Shown one piece after another: positions 5 through 42,423 of a DNA stretch of 64,000 nt. Origin of the DNA: Luteibacter jiangsuensis (GTDB lineage: Bacteria > Pseudomonadota > Gammaproteobacteria > Xanthomonadales > Rhodanobacteraceae); contig NZ_JAUSSK010000005.1 of NCBI RefSeq assembly GCF_030812295.1, forward strand, positions 248,001 to 312,000, given 5' to 3'. Position numbers and translations under genes: made by a program. How positions within the stretch are numbered: position 1 is the first letter of the stretch; each line of letters starts with the position of its first letter. The notes beneath the pieces are model-generated. The model had not been told where the DNA came from. It worked only from the letters and a program-made list of their open reading frames with translations, and searched no databases.

Positions 5-946
5 ATGCCGCTCTCCGTCGCCGTCCTGATGGACCCGATCCGCGCCATCAAGATCGCCAAGGACACCACCTTCGCCATGCTGCTGGAGGCCTCCCGCCGC
101 GGGCACGCCCTGCTGTACATGGAACAGGGAGACCTCGCGCTGCACGACGGCGAGGCATGGGCGCGGCTGCGCCCGCTCACCGTGAAGGAAGATCCGGCCG
201 GCTGGTTCACTCTGGGCGAGCCACGGTGGCGCCCCCTCGGCGAGGTCGACGTGGTCCTGGCCCGCAAGGATCCCCCCGTGGACGCCCAGTTCCTCTACGA
301 CACCATGGTGCTTGAGCGGGCCCAGCGGGCCGGCTGCAAGGTGGTGAACGACCCGAGGTCGTTGCGGGACTGCAACGAGAAACTGTTCTCCCTGGACTTC
401 CCCCAGTGCATCGTACCGGCCCTGGTCTCGCGCGACCGCGCCGAACTGAGGCGGTTCGTCGCCGAACATGGCGAAGTCGTGCTCAAGCCGCTGGATGGAA
501 TGGGCGGGCGCGGCATTTTCCGGGTGAAGGCGGGGGACAGCAATCTCAATTCGATGCTCGAAACACTGCTGGACGGAAACCGCAACTTTACCGTCGTGCA
601 GAAATACATCCCGGAAATCACGGCCGGCGACAAGCGTATTCTGGTCATCGATGGCGAGCCGGTACCCTATGCCCTCGCCCGCATCCCGCAGGGCGACGAG
701 TTCCGTGGCAACCTCGCGGCCGGTGGCCGGGGGGTGGGCATTCCACTGTCGGACCGCGATCGCTGGATCGTCGCGCAGGTGGCCCCCGAGCTGGTCCGCC
801 GCGGGCTTCGCTTCGTCGGCCTGGACGTGATCGGCGACTACCTGACCGAGATCAACGTCACATCTCCGACAGGCGTTCGCGAACTGGACGCCCAGTTCGG
901 CATTAACATCGCCGGGCTGATGTTCGACGCGATCGAGGCCCGATGA
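5..946 (+). CDS. gshB: Glutathione synthetase
   Basis: Joins gamma-glutamylcysteine and glycine with ATP to make glutathione in the cytoplasm. The 313-residue length is normal for the proteobacterial GshB family. Visible hallmarks are the N-terminal MDPIRAIKIAKDTTFAML stretch, the ATP-grasp segment KPLDGMGGRGIFRV and the metal/substrate segment EINVTSPTG near the C-terminus. The ATG at position 5 fits the family N-terminus, so the gene looks complete although it begins at the window edge. Its last four bases overlap the start of the tonB-like gene, so the two are probably translated together. Confidence 0.95.
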   Translation: MPLSVAVLMDPIRAIKIAKDTTFAMLLEASRRGHALLYMEQGDLALHDGEAWARLRPLTVKEDPAGWFTLGEPRWRPLGEVDVVLARKDPPVDAQFLYDTMVLERAQRAGCKVVNDPRSLRDCNEKLFSLDFPQCIVPALVSRDRAELRRFVAEHGEVVLKPLDGMGGRGIFRVKAGDSNLNSMLETLLDGNRNFTVVQKYIPEITAGDKRILVIDGEPVPYALARIPQGDEFRGNLAAGGRGVGIPLSDRDRWIVAQVAPELVRRGLRFVGLDVIGDYLTEINVTSPTGVRELDAQFGINIAGLMFDAIEAR

Positions 947-1803
947 CGACCCGCACCACCGGCGCCGACCTGTTCGGCGCGACCCTGCTGTTCTCGCTGC
1001 TGCTGCACGGTGTCGTCATCCTCGGCATCACCTTCGAGGCGGAGAAGCCCAAACCGAGCGTGCCCACGCTCGATGTCACCCTCGTGGATGTCGCCAACCA
1101 GGAAGCGCCGGACAAGGCGGACTTCCTCGCCCAGGCCAGCAATTCGGGCGGTGGCGACCAGGACAAGGCCGCACGCCCGTCGGAACGCGCGTCCGGCCCC
1201 CTGCCCACGCGCAACCCGGGCGATGCGGCCGAACCCACCGAGGCCCGTGCGCCCACGCCACGCGAGGCCACGCCAGACCCACTCCTCACCACCTCGGGCG
1301 AGACGGCTTTCGCGGTCGATACCAAGCACGAGCAGACCGAGCAAAAGGAACGGCCCCTGCCTGTCTCCGACGACGAGGTGCAGCGCAAGCTGGAAATGGC
1401 GAAGCTGGCGGCCGAGGTCCGCGACCAGTCGCAGGCATATGCGAAGCGCCCGAAGAAGAAATTCATCTCCTCGAACACGCGCGAGTATGTCTATGCCGCC
1501 TACATGAAGGGCTGGGTCGGTCGCGTGGAACGCGTGGGCAACCTCAACTATCCCGACGAGGCGCGGCGCCAGGGGCTGCATGGCGAACTGGTGCTCACCG
1601 TGGGCCTGAACCGAGATGGATCGATCAAGAGCATGGATGTGATCAAGAGTTCCGGGCAGAAGCTGCTCGACGACGCCGCCCAACGTATTGTCCGTCTCTC
1701 CGCGCCCTTCCCCGCCCTGCCCTCGGACAAGAACCGGGTGGACGAGTTGTACATCACGCGAACCTGGCAGTTCCTGCCAGGGAATGTGCTGCGCAACTAC
1801 TGA
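943..1803 (+). CDS. TonB-family energy transducer
   Basis: A 286-residue inner-membrane-anchored periplasmic protein of the TonB family. These proteins carry proton-motive-force energy from ExbB/ExbD to outer-membrane receptors. One membrane segment lies near residues 12-27, followed by a long Pro/Ala/Glu/Lys-rich spacer and a C-terminal TonB domain (roughly 190-280) with the typical NYPDEARRQGLHGELVLTV and later FPALP segments. ATG overlaps the end of gshB (ATGA). No exbB/exbD is adjacent. In related genomes a TonB-like gene commonly follows gshB; whether it serves a receptor or has another envelope role cannot be told here. Confidence 0.88.
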   Translation: MTTRTTGADLFGATLLFSLLLHGVVILGITFEAEKPKPSVPTLDVTLVDVANQEAPDKADFLAQASNSGGGDQDKAARPSERASGPLPTRNPGDAAEPTEARAPTPREATPDPLLTTSGETAFAVDTKHEQTEQKERPLPVSDDEVQRKLEMAKLAAEVRDQSQAYAKRPKKKFISSNTREYVYAAYMKGWVGRVERVGNLNYPDEARRQGLHGELVLTVGLNRDGSIKSMDVIKSSGQKLLDDAAQRIVRLSAPFPALPSDKNRVDELYITRTWQFLPGNVLRNY

Positions 1804-10684: not shown

Positions 10685-10693
10685 GCCCCCCCT

Positions 10694-10767
10694 ATCGCCG
10701 ACAAGGTCGGCTCCCACCGAGCGGGGCCTGCGCTACCGGGCCGGTGGGAGCCGACCCTGTCGGCGAT
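10694..10767. repeat. Paired REP elements (26-bp inverted repeat)
   Basis: The arms 10694-10719 and 10742-10767 are inverted copies that differ at one base, separated by 22 bases. Each contains the core GTGGGAGCCGAC...GTCGGCGAT and can also fold on its own. They fill the gap between convergent yggT and relA, so they probably stop or stabilise both transcripts. Confidence 0.9.
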
Positions 10768-10783
10768 GGGTGTTCGCGAAACC

Positions 10784-12908: not shown

Positions 12909-15900
12909 TCATCGTGTGGCGGCCTGTGCGGTTTCCAGCGCGCGGGCCAGTCGCTTGGCCGACACCGGCTCCGCCGTCTTCAATTCCTGGGCGAACAGCG
13001 AAACCCGCCATTCCTCCAGCAACCAGCGCAGTTCGTCCCAGGTCCTGTCGTTCAACGCGGTCCCGCCCGCGTTGAGCAGCGCGCGCCAGTACGGCAGCAC
13101 CTGCAGCATACGCGACTGGTCGCGCGCCGGGTCCTGGCGAAGGCGCTCGCCGCGCAACCGCATGGCCTTGAGGTAACGCGGGTAATGACCCAGCCGTGCC
13201 AGCGGCAACTCACGGAGGAAGCCCGGCTGCAACAAGGCGGCCAGTTGTTCGCGCAGGTCGTCGTAGCTGGCCTTCGCGAAACCCATTAGCGGCGGGTCCA
13301 TCCATGGCTTGAGTTCGGCCTGTGCCTCGATGATCGGCTCGGCCAGCTTCTGTCGCGCCATGGCCGCGCCGAACAACTCGCGCCCAAGCTCCACACGCAA
13401 GGCCTCGAACTCCCCCTGTGTTCGCGCATCCAGCCGACGGTCCGCGACGAGATCCTCGAATCCCCCCTCGACCAGGTCCTCGCGCAAGCCATCGATACTG
13501 CCCAGGGGGGCGTACTTCAACGATAACGCGTTGGCGATCGGCAGTTGCCGCCGCGCACGCTTGAACTCGGGCGCGAGGGCCTGCCGGAGCAGTCGCTCCA
13601 CGCCGGCCAGGTGCGCCTCGGCGGCCTCGTCCGCGCGTTCGAACACGCGCAAGGCCACGGCCTCGCCCAGGTCGACGAGCGCGGGATAAGCTTTCAGGCC
13701 CGCTTCCGAGCGGACCTCCCTCGGGATCGTCTCGAAGTCCCAGGCAACGATATCCTCGCGGGTCAGCTCGACATCGGTCTTGCGCGAGAAGGCTTCGCGC
13801 GCCTTGCCTTCCCAGCGGGCACGGATCTCGGCCAGGTCGCGTCCTTCGGCCACCGTGCGGCCATCCTCGTCGTGCACCCGGTACCGCATGAGCAGGTGGG
13901 GCGGCAGTTCGGCATCGGCGAACGCGGCGGCATCCACCTCCACGCCCGTGGTGCGCTTGAGGAAGGCCGCCAAGGCCCTGGCCAGTGGCTCGTCGCGAGG
14001 GCCCTCCGCCTCGGCGAAGGCACGCGCGAAATCGGGTGCGGGAACGAAGTTGCGGCGCAACGCCTTGGGCAAGGAACGAATGAGCTCCGCCACCTTGTCG
14101 GCCAGGAGCCCAGCCACCAGCCATTCGCCCCGTGCCGCCGGCAAGGCGTTGAGGAAGGCCAACGGCACCTGGATCGTGACGCCGTCGGCGGGATCGCCCG
14201 GCACGAAGCGGTATTCGAGACGGTAGCGATGCTGGCCGATGTCGAGCGAAGCCGGAAAAGCCTTCGGATCGAGGCCGGCGCCATTGTCCATCACATCGGC
14301 GAGGGTCCAGCGCAACGCCGCCTGCTCGCCTGGCGAGGCCTTGCGATACCAGGCGTCCAGCGCCCGCGCATCGGCGATCTCCTCCGGCAATTTACCGTCG
14401 AAGAAGGCGGCCAATGCCTCGTCCGCGCGCAACAGACCGGCGCGGCGCTGCTTCGCCTCGATGTCGTGGGCCTGTTCCAGCACGCGCGCGTTGGCACGGA
14501 CGAAATCGGCACGACTGTCGATATCCGCGCGTACGAGCGCCTCGCGCACGAAGATCTCGTGGGCCAGCCGCGGATCCTGCTTGTGAAAGGTCACCGGCCG
14601 GCGCTCGACCAGTACGAGGCCGAACAGGGTGACCTGTTCATACGCGATCACGGTGCCGCGCTTACGCGACCAGTGGGCATTGCGCGCGGTCGCCCTCACC
14701 AGATGGGCCGCTTGCGTCTCGACCCACGCAGGGTCGATACGCGCGCACATCATGGCCCAGATGCGGCCACCGATATCGATGATCTGCGCGGCGAACACCC
14801 AGGCCGGGGGAGCCTTGGCCAGAGCCGATCCCGGAAAGACCTGGAAACGCCGCTCGCGCGTGCCGCGGAACACGCCCTTCTCGTCCTTGTGCCCGATCTG
14901 GGTAGGCATGCCGGCGAGCAGGCTGCGGTGGACGGCTTCGAACAAGGCGTCACCCTGGGGGGGCGACGCGGGGGCACGTTTTCCGTTTTCTGGCTTGCCA
15001 GCCTCGTGGGAACGGACCCTGTCCGCGATCCGGGCGGGGCGGCGGCCCCCATCGCGGACAGGATCCGCTCCCACCGAGCCGGATTCTTCCGCCGGGGTGG
15101 GCTCGGCTTGCGCGGAGACGGTCGACCAACCGAGGTCGCGGATGACGAGCACCAGCTGGCGATGCAGTTCCCGCCATTCGCGCATGCGCATGAAACTCAG
15201 GAAGTGCCGCGAACACCAGTCGCGCAGCTTGGACGAGGTGAGTTCCTCGGCGCTGTCGAGATAACCCTTCCACAGGTTCAGCACGCCGACGAAGTCCGAC
15301 TTTGGATCGGCGAACTGCGCATGCGCCGCGTCGGCCTGCCCACGCGCCTCCGGCGGTCGTTCGCGCGGGTCCTGAATGCTCAGGAACGCCACGATGGTCG
15401 TGATCTCGGCGAGGCTGCCCAGACGCCGCGCCTCGACCAGCATCCGAGCGAGCTGGACGTCGATCGGCAAGCGCGCCACGGTACGTCCCACCCCGGTCAG
15501 GCGGCGGCCGTCGTCGATGGCGCCGATCTCCGCGAGACGACGGTAGCCATCGGCCACGACGCGCGGATCGGGTGCGTCGAGGAACGGAAAATCCTCCACC
15601 TCGCCCAGGTCGAGCGCGAGCATGCGCAGGATGACGTTGGCGAGCGAGGAACGCAGCAGCTCCGGATCGGTGTATTCGGGCCGCAGGGTGAACTCCGCCT
15701 CATCGTACAGGCGGTAGCAGATGCCGGGGCCGACACGTCCGCAGCGGCCTTTGCGCTGGTTGGCCGCGGCTTGCGAGATCGGTTCGACGTGCAGGCGCTC
15801 AAGCTGCCCGCGCTGGCTGTAGCGCTTCACGCGCGCCGTGCCCGAATCGACGACATAGCGGATGCGCGGCACCGTGAGCGAGGTTTCCGCCACGTTGGTG

Positions 15901-16946
15901 GCCAGCACGATGCGCCGCTTCGTTCCCGGCCGGAACACCCGGTCTTGCTCGTTCGCCGACAGCCTCGCGTACAGCGCGAGTACCTCGGTCTCTCGATACG
16001 TCTTGCGCGACAGCAACAAGTGCGTGTCGCGGATCTCGCGTTCGCCGGGAAGGAACACGAGCACGTCTCCGCGCGGGTCTTCCCGGGTGATCTCGTCCAT
16101 CGCATCGGCGATCTGCTGCGAGATGTTGCCCTCGCCGCGTTCACCCGGCGGACGGTAGCGGACCTCGACCGGGTACGTGCGTCCTTCGACCGTCACGATC
16201 GGTGCGCCCTCAAAATGCGCCGCGAAGCGTTCCGTGTCGATCGTCGCCGAGGTGACGATGATCTTCAGTTCGGGCCGGCGCGCGGCGAGGCGCTTGAGGT
16301 AGCCGAGCAGGAAATCGATGTTGAGGCTGCGCTCGTGCGCCTCGTCGATGATGATGGTGTCGTAGGCGGACAACCAGGGGTCGGACTGCGTCTCGGCGAG
16401 CAGGATGCCGTCGGTCATGAACTTGACCAAGGCCTGGTCGGAGACCTTCTCCGTGAACCGGACCTGGAAGCCCACCTTGTCGCCGATCGGCGTGCCCAGT
16501 TCCTCGGCCACGCGCACGGCCACCGAACGGGCGGCGAGGCGGCGTGGCTGCGTGCAACCGATCAGCCCCGCCTCGCCGCGGCCGGCGGCGAGGCACAGCT
16601 TCGGCAACTGGGTGGTCTTGCCCGAACCGGTCTCGCCCGCGATCACCACCACCTGGTGCTCGCGGATCAACTTGACGATGTCGTCGGCGCGCGCGGCGAT
16701 CGGTAGCGAGGCATCCACCGTGACCGGCGGCTTGGAGGCCGCCCGGGCGGTCCGGCGGGCTGTCGAATTCGCGATGTCGGCCGCCAGCGCCTCGACCCGG
16801 GCCGGATCGGGCTTGCGCGACAGTGCGCGCCAACGGCCGAGCAGGCGGCCGAAGTCGCGGCTGGTCACCTGCGCCAGCGCGGCGCGCAGCTCTCGCAGGC
16901 GCGGATCGGGAGAAGAAGGGCGTGCGGGGCGTGTGGAGGTGCTCAT
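12909..16946 (-). CDS. hrpA: ATP-dependent RNA helicase HrpA
   Basis: A 1345-residue DEAH-box RNA helicase, the size expected for HrpA. Motifs in order: GETGSGKTTQLPK (Walker A), TQPRRLAARS, IIIDEAHERSLN (DEAH), VTSATIDTERF, VLVFLPGEREI, LATNVAETSLT and QRKGRCGRVGPG. Helicase-associated domains and the long HrpA C-terminal region follow. Residues about 624-648 are encoded by a complete REP palindrome pair (15005-15076), an in-frame insertion between LGWSTVSAQAE and ALFEAVHRSLLAG. The insert lies in a linker, so the enzyme is probably still functional. HrpA has been linked to rescue of stalled ribosomes and mRNA processing. Confidence 0.95.
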   Translation of the reverse strand: MSTSTRPARPSSPDPRLRELRAALAQVTSRDFGRLLGRWRALSRKPDPARVEALAADIANSTARRTARAASKPPVTVDASLPIAARADDIVKLIREHQVVVIAGETGSGKTTQLPKLCLAAGRGEAGLIGCTQPRRLAARSVAVRVAEELGTPIGDKVGFQVRFTEKVSDQALVKFMTDGILLAETQSDPWLSAYDTIIIDEAHERSLNIDFLLGYLKRLAARRPELKIIVTSATIDTERFAAHFEGAPIVTVEGRTYPVEVRYRPPGERGEGNISQQIADAMDEITREDPRGDVLVFLPGEREIRDTHLLLSRKTYRETEVLALYARLSANEQDRVFRPGTKRRIVLATNVAETSLTVPRIRYVVDSGTARVKRYSQRGQLERLHVEPISQAAANQRKGRCGRVGPGICYRLYDEAEFTLRPEYTDPELLRSSLANVILRMLALDLGEVEDFPFLDAPDPRVVADGYRRLAEIGAIDDGRRLTGVGRTVARLPIDVQLARMLVEARRLGSLAEITTIVAFLSIQDPRERPPEARGQADAAHAQFADPKSDFVGVLNLWKGYLDSAEELTSSKLRDWCSRHFLSFMRMREWRELHRQLVLVIRDLGWSTVSAQAEPTPAEESGSVGADPVRDGGRRPARIADRVRSHEAGKPENGKRAPASPPQGDALFEAVHRSLLAGMPTQIGHKDEKGVFRGTRERRFQVFPGSALAKAPPAWVFAAQIIDIGGRIWAMMCARIDPAWVETQAAHLVRATARNAHWSRKRGTVIAYEQVTLFGLVLVERRPVTFHKQDPRLAHEIFVREALVRADIDSRADFVRANARVLEQAHDIEAKQRRAGLLRADEALAAFFDGKLPEEIADARALDAWYRKASPGEQAALRWTLADVMDNGAGLDPKAFPASLDIGQHRYRLEYRFVPGDPADGVTIQVPLAFLNALPAARGEWLVAGLLADKVAELIRSLPKALRRNFVPAPDFARAFAEAEGPRDEPLARALAAFLKRTTGVEVDAAAFADAELPPHLLMRYRVHDEDGRTVAEGRDLAEIRARWEGKAREAFSRKTDVELTREDIVAWDFETIPREVRSEAGLKAYPALVDLGEAVALRVFERADEAAEAHLAGVERLLRQALAPEFKRARRQLPIANALSLKYAPLGSIDGLREDLVEGGFEDLVADRRLDARTQGEFEALRVELGRELFGAAMARQKLAEPIIEAQAELKPWMDPPLMGFAKASYDDLREQLAALLQPGFLRELPLARLGHYPRYLKAMRLRGERLRQDPARDQSRMLQVLPYWRALLNAGGTALNDRTWDELRWLLEEWRVSLFAQELKTAEPVSAKRLARALETAQAATR
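15005..15076. repeat. REP pair inside hrpA
   Basis: The arms 15005-15029 and 15051-15076 form an imperfect inverted repeat of about 25 bp with the core GTGGGA(A/G)CGGA(C/T)CCTGTCCGCGAT and a 21-base spacer. The element is 72 bp, exactly 24 codons, and has no stop in the hrpA frame. Confidence 0.88.
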
Positions 16947-40407: not shown

Positions 40408-40676
40408 CAACGCACCGCCTGGGGAAGGTTCTCGATCAGCGTGCGCGTGAACTGCACGAGGGTGCGCAACATCCAGGGCCCGGCGATGATCATCACCAGC
40501 GCCATGGAGATGAGCTTCGGGATGAAGCTGAGCGTCTGCTCGTTGATCTGCGTGGCCGCTTGGATCATGCCGATGAGGAGGCCCACCGCCAACGCGGTGA
40601 GCAAGAGCGGCGCGCCGATCAGCATCGCGATGTGCAGGGCCTGCTGGCCGAAGCCGATGACCGTTTCCGGAGTCAT
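40407..40676 (-). CDS. fliQ: Flagellar export gate protein FliQ
   Basis: An 89-residue protein with two membrane helices (about 16-40 and 54-75) and the family segments LLIGMIQAATQINEQTLSFIPK and IIAGPWML. It is part of the FliPQR pore. The ATG at 40676 overlaps the fliP stop and the stop overlaps the fliR start, so fliP-Q-R are tightly coupled. Confidence 0.95.
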   Translation of the reverse strand: MTPETVIGFGQQALHIAMLIGAPLLLTALAVGLLIGMIQAATQINEQTLSFIPKLISMALVMIIAGPWMLRTLVQFTRTLIENLPQAVR

Positions 40677-41509
40677 GGGAAAAAGCTCCCCGCAAGCGTC
40701 CCCAGCAGCAGTGTCCAACCGTCGACCAGCACGAACAGCATGATCTTGAATGGCAGCGAGATGATCATCGGCGAGACCATCATCATGCCCATCGACATCA
40801 GCACGGAGGCGACGACGAGGTCGATGATGAGGAACGGGATGAACAGCAGGAAGCCCATCTGGAAAGCCGTCTTCAGTTCGCTCGTCACGAACGCCGGCAG
40901 CGCCACGCGGTAGGGCACGGCATCCTTGTCGGCATACGGCTGCTCGCCGGCCAGCTTGGTGAACAGCTGCAGGTCCGGGTCGCGGGTCTGCTCGAGCATG
41001 AAATGACGGAACGGCGCGGCGGCGAGCGGCAGCGCTTCCTGCACGCTCATCTGGCCGTCCATGTACGGTTTGATCCCGGCGTCATAGGCCTTGTTGATGA
41101 CAGGCGTCATCACGAAAAGCGTGAGGAACAGCGACAGGCCGAGGATCACCTGGTTGGGTGGCGTGCTGTTCGTGCCCAGCGCCTGGCGCAAGAACCCAAG
41201 CACGATGATGATGCGGGTGAACGAGGTCATCATCAGCAAGATGGCTGGCAAGGCGGTCAAGGCCGTCATCAGCGCCAGCATCTGGATCGACAGCGACCAG
41301 GTTTGTGAGCCGTTGGCACCCGGCTGCACATTCAGCAACTGGATACCGGGCGGCTCGGTGGCGAACGCCGCGGCGGGCACGAACAACAAGAAAAGCACCA
41401 CCAGCCACGACCAACGTCGCGCCCGCCCGGCAAGGTGGGAGCACCGCCCGTCAGCCCCTCGTCCTGCTCGGTGGGAGCGGACCCCGTCCGCGATAGCCAC
41501 GGCCTTCAT
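40673..41509 (-). CDS. fliP: Flagellar export gate protein FliP with REP-coded leader
   Basis: A 278-residue FliP. The core is typical: IQMLALMTALTALPAILLMMTSF, GTNSTPPNQVILGLSLFLT and the C-terminal FKIMLFVLVDGWTLLLGTLAGSF. A signal-peptide-like hydrophobic segment (WLVVLFLLFVPAAAFA) precedes it. The ATG at 41509 overlaps the fliO stop. Residues about 6-26 (ADGVRSHRAGRGADGRCSHL) are encoded by a REP element (41434-41494) and give an unusually long, Arg-rich n-region. A start just before WLVVL would remove it, but no good one is visible. Confidence 0.93.
   Translation of the reverse strand: MKAVAIADGVRSHRAGRGADGRCSHLAGRARRWSWLVVLFLLFVPAAAFATEPPGIQLLNVQPGANGSQTWSLSIQMLALMTALTALPAILLMMTSFTRIIIVLGFLRQALGTNSTPPNQVILGLSLFLTLFVMTPVINKAYDAGIKPYMDGQMSVQEALPLAAAPFRHFMLEQTRDPDLQLFTKLAGEQPYADKDAVPYRVALPAFVTSELKTAFQMGFLLFIPFLIIDLVVASVLMSMGMMMVSPMIISLPFKIMLFVLVDGWTLLLGTLAGSFFP
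41434..41494. repeat. REP element inside the 5' end of fliP
   Basis: The sequence 41469-41494 (CGGTGGGAGCGGACCCCGTC plus CGCGAT) is a full REP arm whose GCGGAC/GTCCGC can pair. A degenerate GTGGGAGC copy in the same orientation begins at 41434. The whole stretch lies in the fliP reading frame without a stop. Confidence 0.8.
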
Positions 41510-41928
41510 GGGTGCTTCCACTGTGCAAGAACGTCACGGAAACCACGCGCCACCGGCGTCGCCGGCGGCGGCGCATCGTCCTGCACCGGCGTGGCCAGGA
41601 CGTGCAACGTACGCAGGCCGCCCGTGGGCGAAGCCCCGACCAGGAGTTGCGTACCGCCGACTTCCAGCAGCATGACCTTTTCCTTGATCCCGACCGGCAT
41701 CGATTCGATGACCCGGATCTTCCGGCCGCCGGGGCGCACGCGCGCCTGCGCGCGGCGGCCGAACCAGCCGACGAAGAAGATGAGCGCCACGACGCCGAGC
41801 AGGCTGACCAGCACGCGAAGCCATTCGGCGCCCGAGTCGACCGCCGGGGCGGCGGCCGGGGCCGCCATCAGGGCGCGGGGAAGGAAGCCACCGGCGAAGG
41901 CGGCGACGGTACGACGCATGGGGATCAC
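41506..41928 (-). CDS. fliO: Flagellar biosynthesis protein FliO
   Basis: A 140-residue protein with one membrane helix (about residues 36-56, LRVLVSLLGVVALIFFVGWF) and a small cytoplasmic SH3-like region (IRVIESMPVGIKEKVMLLEVGGTQLLVG). FliO helps assemble the FliP ring. The GTG at 41928 overlaps the fliN stop (GTGA); an ATG at 41919 is the alternative start. The stop overlaps the fliP start. Confidence 0.88.
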   Translation of the reverse strand: MIPMRRTVAAFAGGFLPRALMAAPAAAPAVDSGAEWLRVLVSLLGVVALIFFVGWFGRRAQARVRPGGRKIRVIESMPVGIKEKVMLLEVGGTQLLVGASPTGGLRTLHVLATPVQDDAPPPATPVARGFRDVLAQWKHP

Positions 41929-42257
41929 CGAAGCTTGCGGACGCGTTCGGCCGGGCTGATCACGTCGGTCAGCCGGATACCGAACTTCTCGTTGATGACG
42001 ACGACTTCGCCATGGGCGACGAGGGTGCCGTTGACGAACACGTCGAGCGGTTCACCGGCGGCGCGGTCGAGTTCCACGACGGAACCCTGGTTGAGCTGGA
42101 GGAGGTTGCGGATGCTGATCTTGGTCCGGCCCACTTCCATGGCCATGGTGACCGGGACGTCGAGGATGACGTCGAGGTTCACTTCGTTGCCGAGTCCAAT
42201 GGACGAGGCCAGCGTGGCGTCATTGGCGTTTTCGATTTCGTCGAGCGTGGCGTTCAT
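41925..42257 (-). CDS. fliN: Flagellar switch protein FliN
   Basis: A 110-residue C-ring protein with the SpoA domain: NLDVILDVPVTMAMEVGRTKISIRNLL, GSVVELDRAAGEPLDVFVNG and the end EKFGIRLTDVISPAERV. It binds CheY-P and FliH. Unlike the usual fliLMN arrangement, 215 bases separate it from fliM, and a strong sigma-54 promoter lies in that gap. It therefore heads its own operon with fliO-P-Q-R-flhB. Confidence 0.95.
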   Translation of the reverse strand: MNATLDEIENANDATLASSIGLGNEVNLDVILDVPVTMAMEVGRTKISIRNLLQLNQGSVVELDRAAGEPLDVFVNGTLVAHGEVVVINEKFGIRLTDVISPAERVRKLR

Positions 42258-42302
42258 GTCGTTCCAGTGTTTGCGTTGCCGAGGGGTTCGAAACCCTATG
42301 AA

Positions 42303-42317
42303 GCAAGCGGCGTGCCA
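42303..42317 (-). promoter_or_regulatory. Sigma-54 promoter of fliN operon
   Basis: On the minus strand the sequence is TGGCAC-GCCGC-TTGC, a perfect -24/-12 match. The expected start near 42291 gives a leader of about 34 bases before fliN. A near-palindrome AGGG-GTTCGAAA-CCCT (42282-42297) overlaps the start point. Confidence 0.85.
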
Positions 42318-42423
42318 TGGGGCGAACGCCTGTGGAACGGTGATGTTGCCCAGATGGATCAGATACTTAGTGACTCGCCGGGGACCGCCCTGAGTAGGTG
42401 ACCTGTAGCGGCAGACGGAAACC

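Follow-up and report, generated by a model that had tools for sequence, protein, structure and literature searches.

Results

A REP pair translated in the HA2-OB joint of HrpA

The stretch of Luteibacter jiangsuensis DNA that we analyzed (64,000 nucleotides, hereafter the window; its own genome is denoted G000, and the other genomes and loci carry G and L labels) contains hrpA, the gene of a helicase that belongs to the world of RNA and ribosomes (Table 1). Within this gene, two GTGG-tagged palindromes with their heads pointing outward form a REP pair at 15006-15074, which is translated in frame as residues 625-647 of the protein (VGADPVRDGGRRPARIADRVRSH). An earlier note on this DNA had recognized that a REP pair is read here in an open frame and had assigned it 72 bp or 24 codons (15005..15076); measured from GTGG head to GTGG head, the element is 69 bp or 23 codons long. 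None of the six frames of these 69 bp contains a stop.

The inverted-repeat arms (15006-15035 and 15045-15074, 30 nt) are 87% complementary with 9 nt between them, and among the 7 inverted repeats listed for the 64-kb window, a similar strength is reached only by the pair at 10691-10770. The hairpin is indeed very stable, as had been predicted: the hrpA strand has a folding energy of −74.8 kcal/mol (z −5.1) as RNA (121 nt) and of −32.5 (z −5.75) as DNA (75 nt), with 0 of 200 shuffles folding as well in either case. The unit in sense orientation, GTGGGAGCGGATCCTGTCCGCGAT, has the makeup of a REP, that is, a palindrome of 20-50 nt after a GTAG-like tetranucleotide, with the stem GCGGAT/GTCCGC including one G-U-type pair. 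GTGG also heads the antisense unit; the commonest tag is not GTGG but GTAG. Two inverted REPs with a short spacer, here 21 bp, constitute a BIME. By definition, REPs are extragenic, and in this respect the copy in hrpA, lying within a gene, departs from the type.

Table 1. Positions of the features of hrpA, of its REP pair and of the comparison pair
Feature	Position in window	HrpA residues	Strand	Position in genome	Basis or remark
hrpA, DEAH RNA helicase, 1345 aa	12909..16946		minus		ORF, Pfam, matches to solved E. coli-type HrpA chains
DEAD domain		90-237			Pfam
Site A, loop at start of RecA2	16122..16145	268-275	minus		
Helicase_C domain		282-406			Pfam
HA2_C domain		496-552			Pfam
Site B, entire variable HA2-OB linker	14952..15125	608-665	minus		
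OB_NTP_bind domain		672-745			Pfam
DUF3418 domain		762-1338			Pfam
First REP, sense to hrpA, GTGGGAGCGGATCCTGTCCGCGAT	15051..15074		minus	G000:C5:263051-263074 minus	read VGADPVRD
Spacer, 21 bp, separating the two 24-base REP words	15030..15050				
Second REP, antisense to hrpA, GTGGGAACGGACCCTGTCCGCGAT	15006..15029		plus	G000:C5:263006-263029 plus	read IADRVRSH on the hrpA strand
GCCGAC-type (main subfamily) REP pair flanked by two convergent ORFs	10695..10766				comparison pair

According to the Pfam assignments, the insert lies in the HA2-OB joint and not in the RecA core, so that the earlier view of an insertion in the middle of the core helicase does not hold. That the joint is variable is borne out by the congeners read, in which the linker across reference positions 595-668 spans 25 to 86 aa. 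In solved HrpA, the two matching segments meet at chain residue 617, leaving almost no linker, and the window protein is about 50 residues longer there. The joint is presumably disordered; because the predicted structure is weak (mean pLDDT 56.7), this view derives mainly from the variation in length and the lack of alignment, with which the low values for a coil at residues 611-664 (block means 30-36) weakly agree. A clean empty site was not found, since the linker minus the 23 residues is still longer than in the short-linker species, and accordingly neither a junction nor a target duplication can be defined. Antisense to hrpA, an open frame of 1053 aa extends over 13545-16706 (plus) and is probably a by-product of high GC content.

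The pair in hrpA belongs to a minor REP subfamily

A search of G000 for the REP consensus, as the earlier note had proposed, yielded 268 matches of the general word GTGGGAGCSGAYNNTGTCSGCGAT (125 + 143) and 0 of its reversed control, which makes the repeat multicopy in its own genome. We further compared 131 distinct REP units from the part of G000 that was read, comprising the listed REP places, further stretches of the genome and the window. The stem starts with GCCGA in 120 of these units and with GCGGA in the other 11, among which are both hrpA units and a single REP at 41471. The pair in hrpA belongs to a minor subfamily of G000. Its supposed match to the intergenic pair at 10694-10767 therefore holds as a general likeness only: the stems differ at one compensated position (GCGGAC/GTCCGC in hrpA, GCCGAC/GTCGGC in the other pair), placing the two in separate subfamilies, and the stem class (GCGGA 11/131 vs GCCGA 120/131) rules out the main subfamily as the source of the hrpA pair. 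The single GCGGAC-stem REP of the window (41471-41493, plus) is located near the overlapping ORFs 40673-41521 (minus) and 41512-42393 (plus).

A narrower word of 24 bases had 6 matches in G000, two of which are the hrpA pair, and 118 in the genome of the close relative G002; its reversed control had 0. To regard the hrpA subfamily as a near-extinct relic on the strength of the six matches would be too strong, given that 11/131 units share the stem, some with another last base. The same counts bear on the question of whether an ordinary GC-rich, low-complexity linker might resemble a REP by chance. The linkers of the congeners vary and abound in Arg, Ala and Pro, as such a resemblance would have it, but both arms fit the 24-base word and no shuffle folds as well; the 118 matches in G002 against 0 for the reversed control refute the coincidence, and its probability is negligible.

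The hrpA gene of G002 also contains a REP pair, of a GCGGCC variant, with orientation and 45-bp register identical to those in G000. This variant is found in at least 6 other places in G002, where the pairs elsewhere, among the matches listed, are mostly minus-plus and about 52 bp, unlike the 45-bp register of the hrpA pairs. We infer common descent of the two hrpA pairs, and their shared orientation and register suggest that the insertion probably predates the split of the two species, that is, was inherited. With a matching pair in a close relative, the pair in hrpA probably did not jump recently.

The search for a RAYT gene turned up a single Y1 transposase gene in G000, and it is of the RAYT type, with a PDHWH motif and a REP pair behind it, but that pair is of the main (GCCGAC) kind. 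In a REPtron, the RAYT gene stands beside the REPs of its own type; the RAYT of G000 adjoins the GCCGAC-type pair instead of the hrpA subfamily and, with another subfamily behind it, is unsupported as the mover of the latter. A RAYT was presumably the enzyme that mobilized the pair now in hrpA. In G002, the REPs near the RAYT (Y1 transposase locus L282) have a GCCGAT stem, although of the two words examined in that genome, it is GCGGAC that abounds.

The linker in Luteibacter congeners

HrpA was present in 23 of the 23 genomes compared, and the linker was readable in 22 (G011 is cut). A paired REP with a stem score of at least 16 was detected in six of the 22 (G000, G002, G007, G014, G004, G001), and a single or decayed REP in four (G018, G015, G006, G020), judged by eye and, for G020, by a score of 15.0. 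Another five linkers are long without a recognizable REP (G021, G019, G012, G010, G016), and seven are short and lack a REP (G009, G017, G013, G005, G003, G008, G022). According to the earlier note, an ancient linker would have been indicated had all related HrpA proteins shared the segment with conserved residues; because relatives without it exist, the comparison did not refute an insertion.

The linkers of G004, G014, G006 and G015 resemble a GTAG GCGC family that has 591, 43, 95 and 27 matches in the respective genomes and 0 in G000 or G002. Those of G018 and G001 are also similar to this family, with one genome match each, and G007 has 83 matches, yet its linker contains another stem. Y1 transposases were identified in 22 of the 23 genomes (two in G020, three in G022, one in each of the other 20). 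REP words occur close to 12 of the 25 Y1 loci, and in G004 and G007, GTAG GCGC REPs flank the Y1 locus on either side.

These differences between species could go back to a single ancient insertion in Luteibacter that conversion between copies later replaced, species by species, with the current REP family. The first arm is in the same frame (..GA..) in 6/6 REP rows at site B, and the Luteibacter that bear REPs are partly grouped in the order of the HrpA tree. The widely differing distances between the arms, at 9, 21, 69, 65, 93 and 4 nt in L031, L032, L035, L038, L034 and L041, speak against such a history, as does the existence of short-linker congeners, and we consider it rather unlikely.

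Two joints of HrpA host different palindromes across the order

We scored ungapped inverted repeats (match +1, mismatch −1.5, span <260 nt) in hrpA orthologs from the order, for which 182 fetched loci were reduced to 147 distinct ones by removal of duplicates; in a first pass of 87 orthologs, 11 named duplicates were excluded, and 5 loci without both anchors were excluded from the reading of the linker. A HrpA match exists in 145/147 genomes of the family and 184/200 of the order, of which only part was fetched, mostly best matches first, so that the shares given here are not population estimates. At a score of at least 18, the 147 orthologs contain 59 inverted repeats compared to 0 in one codon-shuffled copy per gene, and at a score of at least 16, 68 compared to 3. 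The 59 strong repeats comprise 45 at site B (in 44 orthologs), 10 at site A (residues 268-275) and 4 elsewhere, two of the latter being tight hairpins at the OB edge. At least one site is filled in 49/147 orthologs and both in five; site A, which has no repeat in the window species, is palindrome-filled in 10/147.

By arm sequence (score of at least 16), site B holds 32 repeats of a CTC type (CCCTCTCCCC..GGGGAGAGGG), 7 of a GGGATTC type, 6 REPs and 5 of a GGGGTCAG type, and site A holds 6 REPs, 3 of the GGGGTCAG type and 1 of the GGGATTC type. With four different core words at these sites, the HA2-OB joint and the loop at the start of RecA2 are repeated docking sites for different palindromes across the order. 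By the appearance of their translations, the linkers of L148 and L150 seem to contain ATTCCC-type repeats, which we take to be like known repeats of that kind. The hrpA gene of L132 seems to combine three palindrome families: its linker has a GGGAAC-type pair as well as a CTC-like stretch, and its site A is occupied by paired GTAG REPs. In G169 (L235), GGGGTCAGAGTC occurs at both sites (C1:1381092 and C1:1382307-1382379).

Three of the repeat families were shown to be multicopy in carrier genomes, one of them, the GGGGTCAGAGTC family, in two genomes only. The CTC palindrome is found at 11 to 175 places in 7/7 tested carriers, forward and reverse matches being the same places because the word is its own complement, and nowhere in 3 Luteibacter. 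A GGGATTC triple has matches in each of 5 genomes tested (4 to 119, numbers that overlapping tandem matches inflate) and none in 2 Luteibacter; two of these five genomes, G038 and G316, were picked on the appearance of the linker or loop and not on a scored stem. For GGGGTCAGAGTC, the matches in five tested carriers number 29 in G169, 11 in G288, 2 in G296, and 0 in G300 and G284; 2 Luteibacter also have 0.

In 89 loci, with stems within 60 nt of an ORF end excluded, ten genes around hrpA (302 orthologs, 334,623 nt) contain 0 repeats of score 18, compared to 37 strong repeats in hrpA itself (89 genes, 358,956 nt). Thus, hrpA is unusual among its neighbors as a host of palindromes; that it is unique does not follow because the neighbors may lack comparable linkers. 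On a FastTree tree of HrpA with the two sites removed (146 rows; L053, which is without the linker, was dropped), site A requires 9 changes, and the number for site B is 36 when all states are considered or 6 among the element-bearing rows, gains and losses being counted alike. The six REPs at residues 268-271 in site A could represent repeated insertions, losses or exchange of hrpA.

Discussion

Tolerance, targeting or a selected hairpin

Very likely, a REP pair inserted into a tolerant joint of HrpA, one of two places in the protein that recurrently take up palindromes. Under this model, a pair of the GTGG/GCGGAC subfamily would have entered the HA2-OB joint, most likely in the common ancestor of the window Luteibacter and G002. 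The insert would have survived because the frame was kept and because the joint, similarly to one other loop, can bear 20 to 60 extra residues, and would now be translated as a hydrophilic, Arg/Asp-rich spacer in a genome where a different REP subfamily prevails today. Across the order, the joint and the RecA2-start loop would take up whichever palindromic family the genome carries. The insert is presumably harmless to HrpA, and its being borne at the joint is the simplest account.

The contrast with the neighboring genes, 37 strong repeats against 0, might suggest instead that hrpA is a hot spot for the mobilizing enzymes, for example through exposed single strands, and not a mere bearer. The GTAG REPs at residues 268-271 of six Rhodanobacter-like orthologs, with 5 changes on the HrpA tree, point in the same direction. 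We nevertheless regard such targeting as improbable: the two joints are shared by families that differ in core word and were probably moved by different enzymes, and each of these joints is a variable protein loop, as tolerance predicts, and the neighbors may simply lack such loops. Moreover, the FtsK and a PKS-like protein of the window's genome also carry a REP outside their domains.

Another possibility is that the fold of the mRNA, rather than the family of the repeat, is what matters, and that it is kept by selection because it slows ribosomes or stabilizes or regulates the hrpA mRNA. In favor of this reading are the great stability of the fold and the fact that strong inverted repeats occupy the same two places although their core words are of four different kinds. 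However, 96/146 orthologs have no site-B stem with a score of at least 16, many of their linkers being long or decayed. In the 20 pairs of the CTC palindrome (660 cells), the consensus pair is kept in 557 cells, 17 are unpaired and unchanged, and 86 are changed; among the changed cells, 56 are broken, 21 are G-U, 6 are paired via changes on both sides and 3 via a change on one side. These are raw counts on rows preselected for pairing, which should favor compensation, and even so few changes are compensated. The CTC repeats look like two arms drifting, and so little compensation fits tolerance better than selection for the hairpin, which we therefore consider very improbable.

A variant of this idea makes the hairpins a device by which the helicase senses itself, in that a shortage of HrpA would cause ribosomes to stall at the two places. 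Any palindrome family would serve, which would explain the recruitment of different repeats to these two joints. Compensation between the arms being scarce, the data oppose this reading too; the hairpins may have such a role in some lineages, but we give the reading only a slender chance.

Relation to known intragenic repeats

REPs in frame within genes are already known. Intragenic GTAG/CGTC REPs, of which dimers or grouped repeats encode 20 to 30 residues, have been described (PMC3733652, BMC Genomics 2013). Their host genes include RNA helicases of O. terrae as well as recB, in which X. campestris and X. oryzae have different REPs at approximately one position; the authors note that flexible linkers or loops may accommodate the inserts. 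The main text of that paper does not contain the word "hrpA". The recB case described there involves two species, one site and two REP superfamilies; the present one involves four core words and two joints across a whole order. The palindromic elements of Rickettsia (RPE), also described there, are palindromic repeats inserted in frame within protein genes; they share the mode of insertion and belong to another host group.

In the REPtrons known from S. maltophilia, Marinomonas and E. coli, TnpA-REP (RAYT) recognizes GTAG REPs, and cleavage is reported to be altered upon a change from GTAG to GTGG (PMC8266576). The resemblance to the elements studied here consists in a GTAG-type tetranucleotide before a near-perfect palindrome and in the gene of an HUH transposase beside REPs. 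The tag in hrpA is GTGG and, unlike in the REPtrons, no RAYT was found beside the hrpA subfamily in the window's genome. In the literature searched, beyond which lie most subscription papers and supplements, we found no description of different palindromes docking recurrently at two joints of HrpA, and a search pairing hrpA with "REP elements" gave no match.

REPs and their kin have mostly been treated as extragenic, and here a conserved helicase gene acts as their standing host. The two joints of HrpA record the palindrome families that a lineage carries or carried and allow insertion, decay and turnover to be followed against a conserved gene. This makes hrpA a natural test of whether repeats in genes are merely borne or sometimes used.

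Other REPs within genes of the same genome

When 73 REP places of G000, taken from the listed part of 269 matches plus the window and including hrpA and the pair at 10700, were classified with a crude gene caller, 25 were "inside" genes (hrpA included), 17 overlapped genes and 31 were intergenic. We inspected 18 of the 24 "inside" cases other than hrpA, one of them (L021) as a translation only, leaving out 6 short ORFs (L017, L023, L025, L218, one in L227, and L232). Two are clearly internal (L013, L258), one is ambiguous (L015), and the remaining cases either sit close to the 5' end of their ORF or lack a Pfam match; hence, besides hrpA, at least 2 of 72 sampled places sit inside conserved proteins. 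In L258, the REP is located at about residue 243 of the ORF, before the FtsK_alpha domain of FtsK and outside the Pfam domains. In L013, whose ORF encodes a PKS-like acyltransferase-carrier-aminotransferase protein, it falls at about residue 505, in the stretch that separates the carrier domain from the aminotransferase domain.
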